Source: Enemella dayhoffiae
Lineage (GTDB): Bacteria > Actinomycetota > Actinomycetes > Propionibacteriales > Propionibacteriaceae
Direction of reading: 5' to 3'
NCBI RefSeq assembly: GCF_002250625.1
Contig: NZ_NMVQ01000047.1
Location: 62,001 to 126,000 of the forward strand
DNA: 64,000 bases
In this document: positions 4,619-39,097 of the stretch, piece by piece
How positions within the stretch are numbered: position 1 is the first letter of the stretch
How the letters are laid out: every line of letters begins with the position of its first letter
Notes under the pieces: generated by a model
Told to the model about the DNA's origin: nothing
Databases searched by the model: none
The model's input: the letters and a program-made list of their open reading frames with translations, nothing else
Made by a program: the position numbers and the translations under genes

Positions 4619-6085
4619 TTGACACCGCTCGGGGTGCGGGCCGAGGGCTGGGGCTGGCGGCACGCCAGCCGCCGGGCCTGGGCGGTCTCCGGGTTGGACC
4701 TGCGGGTCGAACCCGGGGAACGGGTGCTGCTGCTCGGCGCCTCCGGAGCGGGTAAGAGCACGCTGCTGCACGCTCTGGCCGGCGTCCTCGGCGGCGCCGA
4801 GGAGGGCGCGGAGGCCGGCCGGCTGCTGGTCGACGGGCGGCACCCGACCCGCGCCCGGGGCCGGGTCGGGTTGGTGCTGCAGGACCCGGAATCCCAGGTG
4901 GTGCTGGCCCGGGTGGGTGATGACGTCGCTTTCGGGTTGGAGAACCTCGGCGTCCCGCGCGCCCAGATCTGGCCCCGGGTGACCGACGCCCTGCACTGGG
5001 TCGGCCTGCCGTTGCCGCTGGACCATCCCACCGAGCAGTTGTCCGGTGGGCAGAAGCAGCGCCTGGCGATCGCCGGTGCGGTCGCCATGCGGACGGGACT
5101 GCTGCTGCTCGACGAGCCGACCGCAAACCTCGATCCCGAAGGGATCTGCGAGGTACGCCGCGCGGTGACCAATCTGGTCGCCGACCGGGAGACCACGCTG
5201 ATCGTGGTGGAGCACCGGGTCGACCTGTGGCAGGACCTGATCGACCGGGTGCTCGTGCTGGACGCGGGCGGTGGCCTGCTCGCCGACGGGCCGCCCGAGC
5301 AGATTTTCCAGTCCCAGCAGGAATCCCTGCTGAACGCCGGGGTGTGGGTGCCCGGCGTACCGCTGCCCGAGATCGAGGTGCCGCCCCCGGCGTACCAGCC
5401 GACCGAACTGCTGCGCGGCAGCGACCTGGCGATCGGTCACCACACCGTACTACGCAGCGGCATCGACCTCGGCATCGACGCCGGCGCCTCGACGGTGCTG
5501 ACGGGTCCCAACGGTTCGGGCAAGACCACACTCGCCCTCACCCTGGCCGGGTTGCTGCCGCGGCACGCTGGTGAGCTGGCGGCGGCCGAGGAGCTGCGGC
5601 CGGCTCCCCTGCGACGTGGCAGGCGTACGCCCGACCCCGCGGACCCGGCCGGGTGGCGCTCGGTCGACCTGCTGCGCCGGATCGGTACCGTGTTCCAGCA
5701 GCCGGAACACCAGTTCGTCGCCCCCACCGTGCGCGATGAGCTCGCGATCGGGTTACGCGCACTCAAGCTCCCCACCGCCCAGATCGACCAACGCTGCCAG
5801 GAGTTGTTGGCGCTGCTGCGGCTCACCCCGTTGGCGGCCGCCAACCCGTTCACCCTGTCCGGGGGGCAGAAACGGCGGCTGTCGGTGGGCACCGTGCTCG
5901 CCACCGGCCCGCGGGTGATCTTCCTCGACGAGCCCACCTTCGGCCAGGACCGGAACAGCTGGATCGACCTGGTCCGGCTGGTCGCGGGCATGCTGGCCGA
6001 GGACCGGGCCGTGGTCTCGGTGACCCACGACGACGCGTTCATCGAGCTGCTCGGGCAGCGTCGGGTGCACCTGGCGGGCCGATGA
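4619..6085 (+). CDS. ykoD: Duplicated ECF ABC ATPase (YkoD-like)
   Basis: A 488-aa fusion of two ABC ATPase domains that power the ECF transporter. Domain 1 has Walker A GASGAGKST (about 40-48), signature LSGGQKQRL (about 141) and Walker B LLLLDEPT. Domain 2 has Walker A GPNGSGKTT (about 297), signature LSGGQKRRL (about 414) and Walker B VIFLDEPT. Separate A1 and A2 subunits are usual in many ECF systems; the YkoD type carries both on one chain. TTG at 4619 is the assumed start. Its end overlaps ykoC by 4 nt, which points to coupled translation. Confidence 0.9.
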   Translation: MTPLGVRAEGWGWRHASRRAWAVSGLDLRVEPGERVLLLGASGAGKSTLLHALAGVLGGAEEGAEAGRLLVDGRHPTRARGRVGLVLQDPESQVVLARVGDDVAFGLENLGVPRAQIWPRVTDALHWVGLPLPLDHPTEQLSGGQKQRLAIAGAVAMRTGLLLLDEPTANLDPEGICEVRRAVTNLVADRETTLIVVEHRVDLWQDLIDRVLVLDAGGGLLADGPPEQIFQSQQESLLNAGVWVPGVPLPEIEVPPPAYQPTELLRGSDLAIGHHTVLRSGIDLGIDAGASTVLTGPNGSGKTTLALTLAGLLPRHAGELAAAEELRPAPLRRGRRTPDPADPAGWRSVDLLRRIGTVFQQPEHQFVAPTVRDELAIGLRALKLPTAQIDQRCQELLALLRLTPLAAANPFTLSGGQKRRLSVGTVLATGPRVIFLDEPTFGQDRNSWIDLVRLVAGMLAEDRAVVSVTHDDAFIELLGQRRVHLAGR

Positions 6086-7508: not shown

Positions 7509-7928
7509 ATGGGTCCCATGGAGAAACCTCGCGCGGATGAACGCGGCATCGACGACTATCTGCAGACCTATCGCGAGCTGATGGGGTTCGTACCCCCTCG
7601 GGTGCAGGCCCGCTTCGACGACCTGCGCGAGACGAACCCGGATCTGCTGCTCGCACAGGAGAAGGTGCGCGCCCTGGTGTCCAACCCGGCCGATCTGGAC
7701 GAGCTCACCGTGCAGCTGATGCTGTTCGCGATCCTCGCCAGCCGGCTCAGCGATGCGGCCAAGCTGCACGGTTGGGCCGCCCGCCGCAAGGGGGCGAGCT
7801 GGGCCCAGCTGCAGCAGACGCTCGACCTGGCGTACCTGTTCGGGGGCCAGTCGGTGGCCAACCGCGCCCCCTCGGTGCTCGCGGAGATCCGTGAGCTCGA
7901 GGCGAAGCACGGGCTGCCGAGCTACTGA
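7509..7928 (+). CDS. Carboxymuconolactone decarboxylase-like (AhpD fold) protein
   Basis: A 139-aa all-helical protein. The central segment AAKLHGWAARRKGAS matches the family's short H-x6-G helix, and the N-terminal segment DYLQTYRELMGFVPPRVQARF is typical of the fold. The redox CxxC pair of AhpD is absent, so a decarboxylase or other lyase role is more likely than peroxidase partner. ATG 7509 or ATG 7518 could be the start. It lies at the edge of the aromatic catabolic cluster and is convergent with the shikimate dehydrogenase-like gene. Confidence 0.65.
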   Translation: MGPMEKPRADERGIDDYLQTYRELMGFVPPRVQARFDDLRETNPDLLLAQEKVRALVSNPADLDELTVQLMLFAILASRLSDAAKLHGWAARRKGASWAQLQQTLDLAYLFGGQSVANRAPSVLAEIRELEAKHGLPSY

Positions 7929-7937
7929 CTCGGCGCA

Positions 7938-8774
7938 TCAGCCGGCGATGGTGGCGTGCTCCCGCAGCTGGGCCGGCGTCGGCACCGGGTCGAACCCGAA
8001 GAACTCCAGATAGGCGGGGATCTGCTCGAACAGCATGTCCGTGCCCACCTGCGTCGCACAGCCCCGCTCCCGGGCCGCCCCAAGGAAGGGGGTGACCCGA
8101 TGGGTCATCACCACCTCACCGACGAAGGACCCCGGGTCGAGCCGGGAAATCTCGACCGGCATCGGATCCCCGGGGTTCATCCCCAGCGGGGTGCCGTTGA
8201 CGACCACCTCGAAGCCGGCCGGATCGTTGCCACCGGTCTCGACCTGCAGCTGCGGATAGTGCCGCCGCAACCGTTCGGCCAATCCCTCCATCGCCTCGAC
8301 CCGGGTGTCATACACCGCGAGCCGGGAAACCCCTGCCGCGGCGAGCGATGCGGCGATCGCCGAACCGACCCCGCCGGAGCCGACCACCAACGCGGAGGCC
8401 CCCTGCGGCATACGCCCGTTGCCCAGCATTCCGCGGACGAACCCTTCACCGTCGAACATGTCGGCGACCAGCCGCCCGTCCGCCTCCACCCGGACCGCGT
8501 TCGCCGCCCCAGCGATGGCGGCGGTCGGGCGCACCTCGTCGACCAGGTCGAGCACGGTGACCTTGTGCGGCATGGTGACCAGCGCCCCGCGCACATTGGT
8601 CGCCTTCATCACGATTTCGAAGCCGGTCCCGAACTCGGTGGACCGCATGCCGAGCGGCACCACCCGGGCGTCGATCCCGGCGTGGTCGAACCACGGGTTG
8701 TAGATCATCGGCGCCTTGAACGAGTGCGTGGGATCGCCCAGGTGCAGCAGCAGGGTGGTGTTTCCGGTGAGCAT
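7938..8774 (-). CDS. Shikimate/quinate dehydrogenase family protein (AroE-like)
   Basis: A 278-aa NAD(P)-dependent dehydrogenase. The substrate loop GDPTHSFKAP differs from the biosynthetic GxPxxHSxSP pattern. TMPHKV supplies the catalytic Lys. VVGSGGVGSAI is the dinucleotide loop, and NGTPLGM and a conserved Gln near VGTDMLFEQIPAYLEFF follow. Altered substrate residues and the location with catabolic genes suggest quinate or shikimate oxidation rather than biosynthesis. It is 10 nt from the Gfo/Idh oxidoreductase upstream on the same strand. Confidence 0.8.
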   Translation of the reverse strand: MLTGNTTLLLHLGDPTHSFKAPMIYNPWFDHAGIDARVVPLGMRSTEFGTGFEIVMKATNVRGALVTMPHKVTVLDLVDEVRPTAAIAGAANAVRVEADGRLVADMFDGEGFVRGMLGNGRMPQGASALVVGSGGVGSAIAASLAAAGVSRLAVYDTRVEAMEGLAERLRRHYPQLQVETGGNDPAGFEVVVNGTPLGMNPGDPMPVEISRLDPGSFVGEVVMTHRVTPFLGAARERGCATQVGTDMLFEQIPAYLEFFGFDPVPTPAQLREHATIAG

Positions 8775-31059: not shown

Positions 31060-31680
31060 ATGACCGCCACGATCGCCAACACCGAGACCCGGATCGTCGA
31101 TGCCATGCGCGCCGACGACTGGGGCACGGTTGATGCGCTCACCGCCGAGCTGGACCGACTGCAACACCTGCAGCCGGTCCAGCCGGTCACCCCCCTCGGC
31201 GCCTCAGCCCTCTGGTATGCCCAGCAAGGCATTCCCGTCTTCCCCTGCTGGCCACCCGGAACCCGCGACCACGCGGGAAATCCCCGCGACAAGCAGCCCA
31301 TGACTCGCAGCGGTTTCAAGCAGGCCACCCTCGACCCCGCCCAGATCACTGACTGGTGGACCCGATGCCCTGACGCCAACGTGGCGCTGGCCACCGGCCA
31401 TCGCATGGATGTGGTCGACCTCGACGGCCCCGAGGCGATCCATGCATGGGGGGAGCTCGCCGACCGGCCCGAGGTGGTGGCGGTGGTGAAGACCCCGCGG
31501 CCGGGTGGCTGGCACCTGTGGGTGCCGGTATCGGGCCGTGGGAATCGGGCGAACATGCTGCCCCACGTCGACTACCGCGGTATCGGCGGTTATGTCCTCG
31601 CTCCGCCCTCGCGCGTCGTCGAGACCGGCTACCAGGGCCGATATCGGTTCACGCGCCCGCCGCTGGGTGGCGCGAGATGA
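31060..31680 (+). CDS. Bifunctional primase/polymerase (prim-pol) N-terminal domain protein
   Basis: A 206-aa protein with the prim-pol fold. ALWYAQQGIPVFPCWPPGTR is the typical N-terminus. GHRMDVVDLDGPEA holds the catalytic acidic pair. TPRPGGWHLWVPVSGRGNRA is the His-containing motif, and YRGIGGYVLAPPS the final conserved block. It stops soon after this domain, so helicase activity comes from the separate ATPase gene at 36827. See the adjacent frame at 31718-31849, which could be a displaced C-terminus. Confidence 0.85.
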   Translation: MTATIANTETRIVDAMRADDWGTVDALTAELDRLQHLQPVQPVTPLGASALWYAQQGIPVFPCWPPGTRDHAGNPRDKQPMTRSGFKQATLDPAQITDWWTRCPDANVALATGHRMDVVDLDGPEAIHAWGELADRPEVVAVVKTPRPGGWHLWVPVSGRGNRANMLPHVDYRGIGGYVLAPPSRVVETGYQGRYRFTRPPLGGAR

Positions 31681-34142: not shown

Positions 34143-34555
34143 GTAACCACGACCCCGTGACTGACCATGCCCGCCACGCGCTGCAGATGCACACCAGCGA
34201 GGACACCGCAGCGCTCATCTACACCGGACTCGCCATCGCCGACGCCATCAACCGCCTCGCCGACGTGCTCACCCAACCCGACGCCGACCCCGAGTCCACA
34301 CCCATCACCTGCTCCGGCGTGCTCGACCTGGACCACAAACTCCGCTGCCCCATGCCCCACCCACTCACCGAAGCCGAACTCAACCAGTGGACCCGGGCCA
34401 TGCCCGACCTCGCCGACCAGAACGGGCACACCTGGCACTACATGGACACCCGGGGCGGCGTCACCGACTGGACCAACGCCCAGGGTGATCGCCTTGACTC
34501 CGACCAGCTCGTCGACCGCCACAGCCCACTCCACGCCCAGCGGGGTGACCGATGA
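34139..34555 (+). CDS. Unknown phage protein, 138 aa
   Basis: ATG 34139 overlaps the previous stop. Helical N-terminus (HARHALQMHTSEDTAALIYT), then a Cys pair (ITCSGVLDLDHKLRC) with His, and aromatic residues (HTWHYMDTRGGVTDW). It overlaps the methyltransferase start by 4 nt. No family recognised. Confidence 0.6.
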   Translation: MSNHDPVTDHARHALQMHTSEDTAALIYTGLAIADAINRLADVLTQPDADPESTPITCSGVLDLDHKLRCPMPHPLTEAELNQWTRAMPDLADQNGHTWHYMDTRGGVTDWTNAQGDRLDSDQLVDRHSPLHAQRGDR

Positions 34556-36174
34556 GCCTCACCCTGACAGACATCTTCGCTGGCGCGGGTGGGTCGAGCA
34601 CCGGGGCGATCGCCGTGCCCGGCGTCGAAGTCGCGCTCGCCGCCAACCACTGGCAACTTGCCGTCGATGTGCACAACTCCAACCACCCGACCACCGACCA
34701 CGCCTGCGTCGACCTGCACATGGAGGATCCGCGCAACTTCCCCCGCACCGACATCCTCTGGGCCAGCCCGGAATGCACCAAGTGGAGCCTGGCCAACAGC
34801 AAAGCCAAGGCCCTGTCACGGGAGATGGGTGGCGACCCGACTCTGTTCGACGACATCCCCACCGACCTCGAAACCGCTGAACAGGAAGAGATCAACCGCT
34901 CCCGCCTGCTCATGTTCGACGTGCTCCGCTTCGTCGAGCACCACCGCTACCGGATGGTCATGGTCGAGAACGTCGTCGACATCGCCACCCAACCGAAGTA
35001 CGCGGCCGCCTGGTCCGCGTGGCGCCGCGGGCTCGACAAGCTCGGGTACGCCTTCCGGGTCGTGTCACTCAACTCGATGCACGCCCAGCTCGGCGGCCTG
35101 CCCGCACCCCAGTCACGCGACCGCCTCTACATCGTCGCGTGGCCCAAGGGGGAGAAGGCGCCCGACATCGACCGGGCACTCCGCCCGCCGGCCTGGTGTA
35201 GCCGCTGTGAGGCTGTGGTGGAATCCCAGCAGGCATGGAAGCCCGGCCGCATTGTCGGCCGCTACCGAGCCCAGTACGTCTACGCCTGCGGCCGATGCGG
35301 CAATGTCGTCGAGCCTGGCTGGCTGCCCGCCTCCCATGCCATCGACTGGAGCCTTCCCGCCGAACGGATCGCGGACCGTGCCAGACCCCTGTCGCCGAAG
35401 ACGATGGCGCGCATCCGCGAAGGGCTCCGTCGCTACGGCGGGCCGGTCCACCTCGAGGCCGGCGGCAATCAGTACGACTCGATGGACCCGAAGCACCGCC
35501 AGCACGGCAGCCCGACCGGCTACCTGCGAGCATGGCCCGTCGGCGAACCGCTACGGACGCTGCACACTGCGCCGACCAAGGGGCTGGCCATTCCCTTCAT
35601 CCTGGATCGGCGCGGTGAGTACCGAGTCCGGGATCTCGAATCGCCATTGAGCACGATCACCGCGAACGAGACCACGAAGGCGCTCCTGATTCCGGTCGAA
35701 GGCCGGGACGGCAAGCGCGCCAGCTCATCCCACGAGCCGATGAGGACGCAGACGACCCGCAGCGAGACCGGCCTGCTCGTGCCGTACTACTCCGCGAGCG
35801 AGACCGCGAAGCCGACCGAGTATCCGATCGGCACCCTGACCACCGTCGACCGGTACGCCCTGGTCATGGACAACAACCACGCCAATCGAGCGCGGCCCGC
35901 GTCCGAGCCGATGCCGACACTGACCACAGCGACGACGAAGGCGGTCATGGACGGTGAGCGCCGCGACGTCCAGGTGGTCACCGACGACGACGTGATGGCG
36001 TGCCGGTTCCGGATGCTGGAGCCGTCCGAGATCGCTGCCGGTATGGCATTCCCCGGCGACTACCAGTGGGCTGGCACCAAGCGGGAGCGTGTGAAGCTCG
36101 CCGGGAACGCGGTCACCCCACCCGCTGCCCGCGACCTGGTGTCTGTGGTCGCTGACGCACTGGGGGCGGCATGA
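34552..36174 (+). CDS. Orphan DNA cytosine-5 methyltransferase
   Basis: A 540-aa enzyme. Motif I is DIFAGAGGSS, motif VI is ENVVD, motif VIII is QSRDRLYIV and motif X is GNAVTPPAARDL. Motif IV reads SPECTKWS rather than the usual PPC, as in some phage types. An inserted zinc-like region has CSRCEAVV and CGRCGNVV. No restriction enzyme gene is adjacent, so it probably modifies phage DNA to escape host restriction. Confidence 0.9.
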   Translation: MSLTLTDIFAGAGGSSTGAIAVPGVEVALAANHWQLAVDVHNSNHPTTDHACVDLHMEDPRNFPRTDILWASPECTKWSLANSKAKALSREMGGDPTLFDDIPTDLETAEQEEINRSRLLMFDVLRFVEHHRYRMVMVENVVDIATQPKYAAAWSAWRRGLDKLGYAFRVVSLNSMHAQLGGLPAPQSRDRLYIVAWPKGEKAPDIDRALRPPAWCSRCEAVVESQQAWKPGRIVGRYRAQYVYACGRCGNVVEPGWLPASHAIDWSLPAERIADRARPLSPKTMARIREGLRRYGGPVHLEAGGNQYDSMDPKHRQHGSPTGYLRAWPVGEPLRTLHTAPTKGLAIPFILDRRGEYRVRDLESPLSTITANETTKALLIPVEGRDGKRASSSHEPMRTQTTRSETGLLVPYYSASETAKPTEYPIGTLTTVDRYALVMDNNHANRARPASEPMPTLTTATTKAVMDGERRDVQVVTDDDVMACRFRMLEPSEIAAGMAFPGDYQWAGTKRERVKLAGNAVTPPAARDLVSVVADALGAA

Positions 36175-36826: not shown

Positions 36827-38500
36827 GTGACCACCAGCTGGAACGACCTCTGGCAACAACCACCAGCCCGCCGCCCCACCCCAGCTGGCCCACTTCAACC
36901 ACCCGGCGAAGCCACCGCCTACGCCCAGAAGGCCCTCGCCCTCGAATGCGCCGAACTAGCCAGCACCCCTGAAGGGGGGCGCAACCACACGCTCAACATC
37001 GCCGCGTTCAACATCGGCCAACTCATCGCGGCCGGCCACCTCGGCGAGCAGGACGCGCGCACCCACCTCACCAACGCAGCCCGCCAAGCCGGCCTCACCG
37101 ACATCGAGATCCAACGCACCCTCAACTCCGGACTCCGCGGCGGCCATCGCTCCGGACCGCGTCAGGTCGAGCAGCTCCCCGAGGGTTGGACCGTCACCGA
37201 AGTGTCCGCCGAGGAACTGCACGCCGAAGCGGCCGCACCCGCCGCCACCGACCAGGACCCGTTCTGGGACTCCAGACCCGTCCTCCAGCACATCCGTGCG
37301 TTCGCCCACGCCCGCCTCACCAGCCCCTGGTCCATGCTCGGTGTCACCCTCATCCGCACCCTCGCCTGCATCCCACCCCACGTGGTCCTCCCGCCCCTGA
37401 TCGGCGGCCCCGGCAGCCTCAACCTGTTCCTCGCGATCGTGGGGCCCTCCGGTGTCGGCAAGGGCGCCACCGAGGCCGCCGCCACCGACGGCGTACGCCA
37501 ACCCCACGAGGTCTACACCGCCACTGTGGGCTCCGGCGAGGGCATTGCCCACCAGTACGCCAAGCGCGTCCGTGGTGGTGCGCAGGAGACCGTCCGCCAA
37601 TCCGTCGTCTTCTCCGTCCCTGAGATCGACACCCTCGGCGGCCTCAATGCCCGCCAGGGCTCCACCCTCATGCCCCAGCTCCGCTCAGCTTTCTCCGGCG
37701 AAACCCTCGGCTTCGGGTACGCCGACGCCCAGAAACGCCTCATCATCGACCGCCACACCTACCGCCTCGGCCTGATCGTGGGCGTCCAGCCCGGCCGCGC
37801 CCACACTCTGCTCAATGACGCCGACGGCGGCACCCCGCAGCGCTTCATCTGGCTCCCCGCCACCGACCCCACGATCAACCCCGAGCCCGACGAGGCGCCC
37901 CCGCCCTGGAACGTCCGCGGCTGGACCTGGCGCCCCGAGCTCGGCACCACCCGCGACACCGACGGCCGCTACCAACTCACCGTCCCTGACCAGGTCGCCA
38001 CCACCATCCGCGAGGCCCACGTCGCCCGAGCCCGCGGTCAGGGGGACGCCCTCGACGGCCACTCCCTGTTCGCTCGCGAGAAGGTCGCCCAGGCTCTCGC
38101 CCTCCTCGACGACCGGCAGGAGATGAGCCTGGAGGACTGGGAGCTCGCCGGTCACGTCATGGCGATGTCCGACTGGACCCGCGCGAACGTCCAGGCCACC
38201 CTCACGCGCAGCAGTCGTGAGGCCGACCAGCGCCGGGCCGAACGTGACGCCCGCCGCGCCGACGTCATCGACAACACCCGCGCGGAGCTGCAGGTCGACC
38301 GGGCCGCCAAGCAGCTCCTGAGGCGGCTCGACAAGGCCGACGACTGGCTCAGCCAGGGGCGGCTGCAGAACAGTCTGCGGGGCGATCTTCGGCCGCTGTA
38401 TGACGAGGTGCTCGACCGCCTGCGGGATGCGCACGCGATCGAGATCGAGACCCGAAATGCAGGCGGTCAGGAGGTGACCTATGTGCGCAGCCACCGCTGA
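36827..38500 (+). CDS. Phage primase/helicase-type P-loop ATPase
   Basis: A 557-aa replication protein. Residues about 28-110 resemble a primase C-terminal helical domain (ALALECAELASTPEGGRNHTLN and RTLNSGLRGG). An AAA/RecA-like ATPase follows with Walker A GPSGVGKGA at about 207, a VVFSVPEIDTLGG Walker B-like strand and VGVQPGR. The C-terminus is a winged-helix-like region. With the separate prim-pol it would supply priming and unwinding. GTG 36827. It ends 8 nt before the iterons at 38509. Confidence 0.8.
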   Translation: MTTSWNDLWQQPPARRPTPAGPLQPPGEATAYAQKALALECAELASTPEGGRNHTLNIAAFNIGQLIAAGHLGEQDARTHLTNAARQAGLTDIEIQRTLNSGLRGGHRSGPRQVEQLPEGWTVTEVSAEELHAEAAAPAATDQDPFWDSRPVLQHIRAFAHARLTSPWSMLGVTLIRTLACIPPHVVLPPLIGGPGSLNLFLAIVGPSGVGKGATEAAATDGVRQPHEVYTATVGSGEGIAHQYAKRVRGGAQETVRQSVVFSVPEIDTLGGLNARQGSTLMPQLRSAFSGETLGFGYADAQKRLIIDRHTYRLGLIVGVQPGRAHTLLNDADGGTPQRFIWLPATDPTINPEPDEAPPPWNVRGWTWRPELGTTRDTDGRYQLTVPDQVATTIREAHVARARGQGDALDGHSLFAREKVAQALALLDDRQEMSLEDWELAGHVMAMSDWTRANVQATLTRSSREADQRRAERDARRADVIDNTRAELQVDRAAKQLLRRLDKADDWLSQGRLQNSLRGDLRPLYDEVLDRLRDAHAIEIETRNAGGQEVTYVRSHR

Positions 38501-38508
38501 GCCCAAGG

Positions 38509-38695
38509 GGTTAGGACGGGTTAGGACGGTCCTAACCCTCTCAGCACATTCGTCTCTCATCTTTCCTACCGCAAAGATGAGAAACAGCCTCTCACTAGTA
38601 TTTATGAGAAAAATTGTCTTTCCTGTATCCGCGCGAGGCTCACATCTTCGTACGGCCGGTCCTAACCCCCCGATTTGTCCTAACCCGTCCTACCC
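38509..38695. other. Putative phage replication origin (iterons, hairpin, AT-rich core)
   Basis: Five perfect copies of GGTTAGGAC or its complement lie at 38509-38517, 38519-38527, 38529-38537, 38659-38667 and 38677-38685; a one-base variant is at 38687-38695. The second and third form a 21-bp perfect palindrome at 38518-38538. Between the clusters is TCTCATCTTT-N8-AAAGATGAGA (about 38553-38581) and a locally AT-rich stretch to about 38630, unusual in this GC-rich phage. Position right after the helicase gene supports an origin; a regulator site is the alternative. Confidence 0.65.
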
Positions 38696-38713
38696 CCTCA
38701 CGAGGCCCTAGCC

Positions 38714-39097
38714 ATGGACCGCCAACACCACCACCTCCTCACCCACGCACGACCCCGCCCCATGCCCTGGCACGCCCGACCCAACACCTGCCTCAACTGC
38801 GGCTGGACCACCTGGTACGCCCCACCCCTCATCACCGGCTGGAACCCCGCACAGCCCGGCCCGCGCATCCAGGTCGACCCCACCCCCATCAGCGAAGCCA
38901 CCGCCGACCAACTCGACCGACCCACCTACTGGCTCACCCAGGCCATCACCGACCCCACCCGCTACGTCCTCCGCCCACGCCACCAACCACCCCTCACCGG
39001 CCTCACCGACCGCGGTGACCTCCTCCCCGAGCACCGGTGCCACCAACCCGAAGTCACCCCCACCATCCCGTCCCGACTCCCCGAGGAGACCCCATGA
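38714..39097 (+). CDS. His/Cys-rich phage protein, 127 aa
   Basis: ATG 38714 opens a Pro/His-rich protein with NTCLNCGWTTWYAPP, a CxxC knuckle, and DRPTYWLTQAI. It overlaps the next gene by 4 nt. It looks like a small DNA-associated or structural zinc protein; not recognised. Confidence 0.55.
   Translation: MDRQHHHLLTHARPRPMPWHARPNTCLNCGWTTWYAPPLITGWNPAQPGPRIQVDPTPISEATADQLDRPTYWLTQAITDPTRYVLRPRHQPPLTGLTDRGDLLPEHRCHQPEVTPTIPSRLPEETP

Follow-up and report, generated by a model that had tools for sequence, protein, structure and literature searches.

A candidate replication origin directly downstream of an MCM-like helicase gene in a prophage of Enemella dayhoffiae

The SaPI Rep and SCCmec Cch2 proteins of staphylococcal islands use their C-terminal domain to recognise iterons located directly downstream of their own genes; Cch has been described as MCM-like/DUF927, and the C-terminal domain of Cch2 was shown to bind its repeats (PMC7581432). 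In the plasmid pRN1, the origin was mapped directly after the gene encoding a primpol, a helicase, and a winged helix. It has 21-nt inverted arms and a 58-nt AT-rich loop, and mutations showed that both arms and loop are required (PMC4234260). The alpha protein of phage P4 is a related case, being a primase-helicase whose C-terminal winged helix binds origin repeats (described in PMC4234260). In the PLE satellites, the origin iterons vary in step with the initiator's DNA-binding domain and the modules are exchanged, as demonstrated by swaps (PMC8263062). DUF3987 proteins were previously only predicted to be helicases (PMC5862659), and no published origin was found for the DUF3987-type actinomycete family in the open-licence literature.

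Prophage setting and helicase gene

The window, i.e., the whole 64-kb stretch of DNA that was analysed (positions are counted from its first letter), contains a prophage with genes for a Prim-Pol and a helicase, followed by those for terminase, portal, capsid, and tape measure proteins. The coordinates of an IMG/VR viral contig that carries the same gene place the start of the prophage at approximately 20.6 kb and its other limit beyond the end of the window. The probable initiator helicase gene (36827–38500, + strand) matched DUF3987 (PF13148, E 5.6e-8) and a phage 'DNA polymerase/primase' family (phrog_11515, E 3.7e-73). The Prim-Pol, an archaeo-eukaryotic-type primase-polymerase (31060–31680, + strand; PF09250, E 4e-31), is probably the primase of the same replicon. 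A phage-borne C-5 cytosine DNA methyltransferase gene was observed just upstream of the helicase (34552–36174; PF00145, phrog_116), without an obvious restriction partner among the ORFs inspected.

The repeat element lies between the helicase stop codon (38498–38500) and the next gene (38714–39097, + strand), which follows directly 3' of the element and encodes, by sequence comparison, a small Cys-motif protein. A small Cys-X2-Cys protein directly after the origin was also seen in the otherwise distant relatives L006, L009, L010, L043, and L046.

In the AF2 model, the helicase has an N-terminal helical part, an MCM-like AAA+ ATPase (approximately residues 146–450), a long helix, and a C-terminal winged helix with a helix-turn-helix and a beta-wing (residues 490–557, encoded at 38294–38497, + strand). 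The pLDDT of the ATPase and C-terminus was 84 in a run on ten sequences; a four-sequence run was poor except for the C-terminus. The top PDB matches to the model were all MCM helicases (Foldseek E 4e-7), and comparison with MCM (VIA) gave a Z of 15.3 and an rmsd of 4.7 over 257 residues. A profile search of PDB sequences gave no significant relative. The modelled combination of an MCM-like ATPase with a C-terminal DNA-binding domain is that of the SaPI/SCCmec type. An MCM-like fold alone is no proof of function, and the sensible reading of the predicted protein as a replicative helicase comes from the fold together with the Prim-Pol, which adjoins the helicase or is fused to it (relatives L046 and L051). 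Phage P4, unlike the window, has a TOPRIM primase, an SF3 helicase, and ori and crr as separate sites.

The repeat element and its relatives

Iteron-type origins repeat a short initiator word several times next to an AT-rich putative unwinding element, and they have a linked initiator whose DNA-binding domain is matched to the word. The window contains five exact copies of GGTTAGGAC, all of them within the element (approximately 38506–38698): two on the + strand (38509 and 38519) and three on the − strand (38529, 38659, and 38677). A copy with one mismatch, GGGTAGGAC, is located at 38687 (− strand). When one mismatch was allowed, GGTTAGGAC occurred 12 times in the whole window against a shuffle mean of 6.9, a count that was reached in 5 of 100 shuffles and is by itself not extreme. 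The clustering of the five exact copies within 177 bp (38509–38685), in an ordered inverted layout, is not due to chance.

The copies form a left iteron array (38506–38538), which includes a 21-bp palindrome (38518–38538), and a right iteron array (38659–38698) that includes the variant copy. The outer arms of the two arrays (38506–38527 and 38677–38698) are inverted 22-nt copies with 95% complementarity, and their score of 19 compares with a maximum of 10 in 40 dinucleotide shuffles. The word pair is absent from the rest of the 3.72-Mb genome, in which the element is single-copy.

The AT-rich core (38529–38629), a putative DNA unwinding element, is the AT maximum of the window: the 100 bases from 38529 have an AT content of 59%, against 32% in the window overall. 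The core contains a hairpin (38552–38585) with a perfect 10-bp stem (38555–38564/38573–38582), and the surrounding 81 nt have a more stable fold than almost all of their shuffled versions (z −3.05 for the + strand and −4.82 for the − strand, DNA parameters). In the closest relative, L005 (IMGVR_UViG_2920158810_000002), the core is nearly the same and the stem pairing is preserved by a two-sided change from C-G to A-T; the hairpin is common to the window and L005 only and is not a family feature. When 33 cores from a range of lineages were searched for motifs, a conserved core motif emerged with a consensus of approximately CTCTGACYWGS-N3-TTA. It occurs in both orientations and scored 337, with a shuffle maximum of 288. 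In the window, the motif is CTCTCACTAGTATTTA (38589–38604, + strand). It could be a primer start site or a melting site, which is a guess. GC skew across the window had no clean switch marking an origin.

An earlier note on this DNA had described five perfect copies and one variant in two clusters of opposite orientation, a 21-bp palindrome, a 10-bp stem hairpin, and a rare AT-rich core, all immediately after a primase/helicase gene, and each of these was recovered at the coordinates given above. Its extent for the element, 38509–38695, was right in location and slightly narrow in its limits.

The layout was compared among 56 usable helicase homologues from phages, prophages, plasmids, and genomes. 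Inverted arrays were present in the 400 nt that follow the stop codon in 37 of the 56 relatives and in 12 of 468 control tiles, which were drawn from the relatives' own loci and judged by the same threshold (Fisher p 3e-32). The loop between the inverted arrays was usually AT-richer. The comparison showed that this layout after the helicase gene spans distant actinomycete phages, prophages, and one plasmid, and in the window and the 37 relatives the candidate origin is located directly downstream of the helicase gene, as in the SaPI/SCCmec type. The iteron words are lineage-specific: GGGTTGGAC in L005 and, in others, GTGGACA, CCTGGAAA, GGTACC, TTTGCTGG, GTCGGCC, TAGGCCAGG, and further words. 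In four more relatives (L068, L069, L071, and L078), the helicase gene has a 3' coding extension that contains both the arrays and the core motif. This indicates that the arrays follow the winged helix and not the stop codon. No array was detectable near the gene in approximately a quarter of the relatives (e.g., L012, L016, L051, L073, L083, and L084). Scans with other helicases gave nothing in viral contigs and one distant locus in genome contigs.

Host DnaA may also be used by some members: unlike the window, L013 and L015 have a perfect DnaA-box-like TTATCCACA in or beside the origin region downstream of the helicase. L001, a short viral contig from a metagenome that was found via the word pair, has 10-bp repeats (CCTAACCTGT/CCTAACCTGC) in tandem at approximately 1078–1138; it has the word in common with the window but lacks the two-sided layout.

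Covariation and exchange of winged helix and iteron word

The decisive result of the sequence comparison is the covariation of the winged helix with the iteron word. Where the ATPases were near-identical and the words differed, the difference between the proteins was confined to the C-terminal 60–70 residues. The ATPases of L045 and L049, for example, are 100% identical and their winged helices 33%; between the Gordonia phages L046, L047, and L057 on one side and L048 and L058 on the other, the values are 95–99% and 65–68%, and between the window and L005 they are 92% and 56%. In pairs sharing the same word, the C-terminus is 94–100% identical. Sixteen near-identical homologues from mycobacterial prophages have four winged-helix alleles that correspond one to one to four iteron words, and word sharing followed winged-helix identity (rho 0.83) rather than ATPase identity (rho 0.06). 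One relative, L095, shares its winged helix and word with L086, yet its ATPase is only 86–87% identical. The pairs share ancestry and are not independent, and therefore the p-value of the correlation is not taken at face value; the argument rests on the one-to-one matching and on the reassortment. On this comparison, the helicase would be the linked initiator with a word-matched DNA-binding domain.

Nucleotide profiles of L046/L058 and L044/L045 showed the winged helix and the element as one diverged block between flanks of approximately 95% identity. The edges of the block in both pairs are approximately 190–250 nt before the stop codon and approximately 240 nt after it, and in the clearest pairs the cassette of winged helix and element measures approximately 0.5 kb. 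No fall of identity over the winged helix and element was observed in L046/L057, which have the same word. In L045/L049, the downstream side stays diverged, which points to a larger exchange there. By this comparison, the winged helix and the element have been exchanged between phages together, as one cassette.

The closest relative retains what appears to be a trace of such an exchange. L005 has its own element, and directly after it (approximately 7860–8070) there is a displaced second winged-helix coding stretch without a detached gene of its own. This stretch is nearer to the winged helix of the window (alignment score 121, shuffled maximum 39) than to that of L005 itself, and it is followed by a homologue of the 38714–39097 gene, so that this gene shows where the exchanged block ends on its downstream side. 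Most simply, a new winged helix and origin would have been inserted before the old winged helix, and the old origin would have been lost.

Probable origin function and comparison with described systems

The element is very probably the replication origin of the prophage, read by the upstream helicase. The family layout and the covariation of word and winged helix strongly support the earlier note in regarding it as an origin with initiator sites and an unwinding element. They also reach beyond that note: the likely initiator is the helicase itself, the winged helix and origin move as one cassette, and the core holds a conserved motif.

Dimeric regulators typically bind inverted repeats and palindromes such as the 21-bp one, and a gene of the same direction starts 16 bp past the element, so a phage transcription regulator could use the repeats as operators, with the element as a promoter/operator for the downstream genes. 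We consider this quite unlikely: in the phage, the word pair is confined to the element, and the layout persists in relatives, where it surrounds an AT-rich core that has a constant motif. The word, moreover, does not go with a regulator gene of its own but covaries with a winged helix fused to a replicative ATPase. Autoregulation by the initiator in addition to the origin role is possible. The symmetric arrays and the AT-rich core with its conserved motif also fit initiation better than a role in plasmid-like partition or incompatibility, as a centromere or for copy-number control, in which the winged helix of the helicase would bind the element. Plasmid iterons do serve copy control as well, and parS with direct repeats is found near repA in mycobacteriophages (PMC7157519); the binder here would still be the helicase and not a ParB-type protein, and this function is highly improbable.

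It is barely credible that the element is a packaging (cos/pac) site or a mobile insertion, or that its repeats cluster by chance. The gene for the terminase large subunit is approximately 3 kb downstream of the element, and the inverted ends resemble those of a small insertion element, but the element is present once in the genome, distant relatives have the same layout in the same place with different words, and the covariation is with the helicase and not with the terminase. A mobile element or MITE was rejected on the single copy and on the lack of a close DNA relative in phage or plasmid collections.

For an origin read by the upstream helicase, the following course is proposed. We infer that the helicase binds the GGTTAGGAC iterons via its C-terminal winged helix. 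The arrays flank the AT-rich core in opposite directions, and for this reason two helicase rings would probably load on them in opposite orientation and melt the core between them. The melted core would be exposed to the phage Prim-Pol, which would prime DNA synthesis there, and a host polymerase would then extend. The inverted symmetry, and the analogy to MCM double hexamers, suggest that the two opposed helicases would give bidirectional replication.

An origin of this kind is already known from the SaPI/SCCmec, pRN1, and PLE precedents. As in SaPI Rep-ori and SCCmec Cch/Cch2, the initiator is predicted to be a helicase that loads itself and has its DNA-binding domain at the C-terminus, and the iterons are non-coding and located downstream. 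The window differs from them in its DUF3987-like ATPase (the Pfam assignment is DUF3987, not DUF927), its occurrence in actinomycete phages, its Prim-Pol partner, and its pair of inverted arrays, which have palindromic units and enclose a conserved core motif. RepA of the Vibrio phage satellite PLE is, unlike the window helicase, of the RepA_N type without a helicase domain, and its origin is located separately. In the open literature searched, there appears to be no description of the origins of the DUF3987-type family, of their two-sided layout around a constant core motif, or of specificity exchange on such a scale.

More tentatively, and with less than even confidence, the relatives could form an undescribed replicon class that is widespread among actinomycete phages and plasmids. 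In this class, an MCM-like helicase would be loaded head-to-head on two inverted iteron arrays, and the winged helix and origin would be a specificity cassette of approximately 0.5 kb. Phages would exchange the cassette to escape replicon incompatibility or an origin-directed attack, comparable to the escape of PLE satellites from the nuclease Odn. For many actinomycete phages annotated only with a 'DNA primase/polymerase', the comparison provides a candidate origin and initiator that can be tested. The natural allele series, with near-identical ATPases and differing winged helices and words, is a ready test of how a loader-free MCM-like helicase finds and opens an origin, and it bears on the reason why phages switch origin specificity. 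Matched pairs of winged helix and origin could supply compatible replicons for actinomycete vectors.

With ORF904 of the Sulfolobus plasmid pRN1, the window shares the Prim-Pol (an AEP primase), helicase, and winged helix, followed directly downstream by an origin with inverted arms, which are 22 nt long in the window. ORF904 is, in contrast, a single polypeptide with an SF3 helicase; the window helicase has its best fold matches among MCM helicases, and its Pfam family is DUF3987. The pRN1 authors describe a stem-loop without iterons. In the Bordetella phage BIP-1, their pRN1-like case (PMC4234260), only a short 9-nt stem was present in the region placed. When the arms were recomputed in pRN1 (5083–5182), each arm of the stem-loop (TTATGTCCATAGTGTCCAACT) had two GTCC words 10 bp apart, a spacing that also occurs in the window. 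The published stem-loop may therefore be a pair of inverted iteron pairs, and the pRN1 origin may share the logic of the window element.
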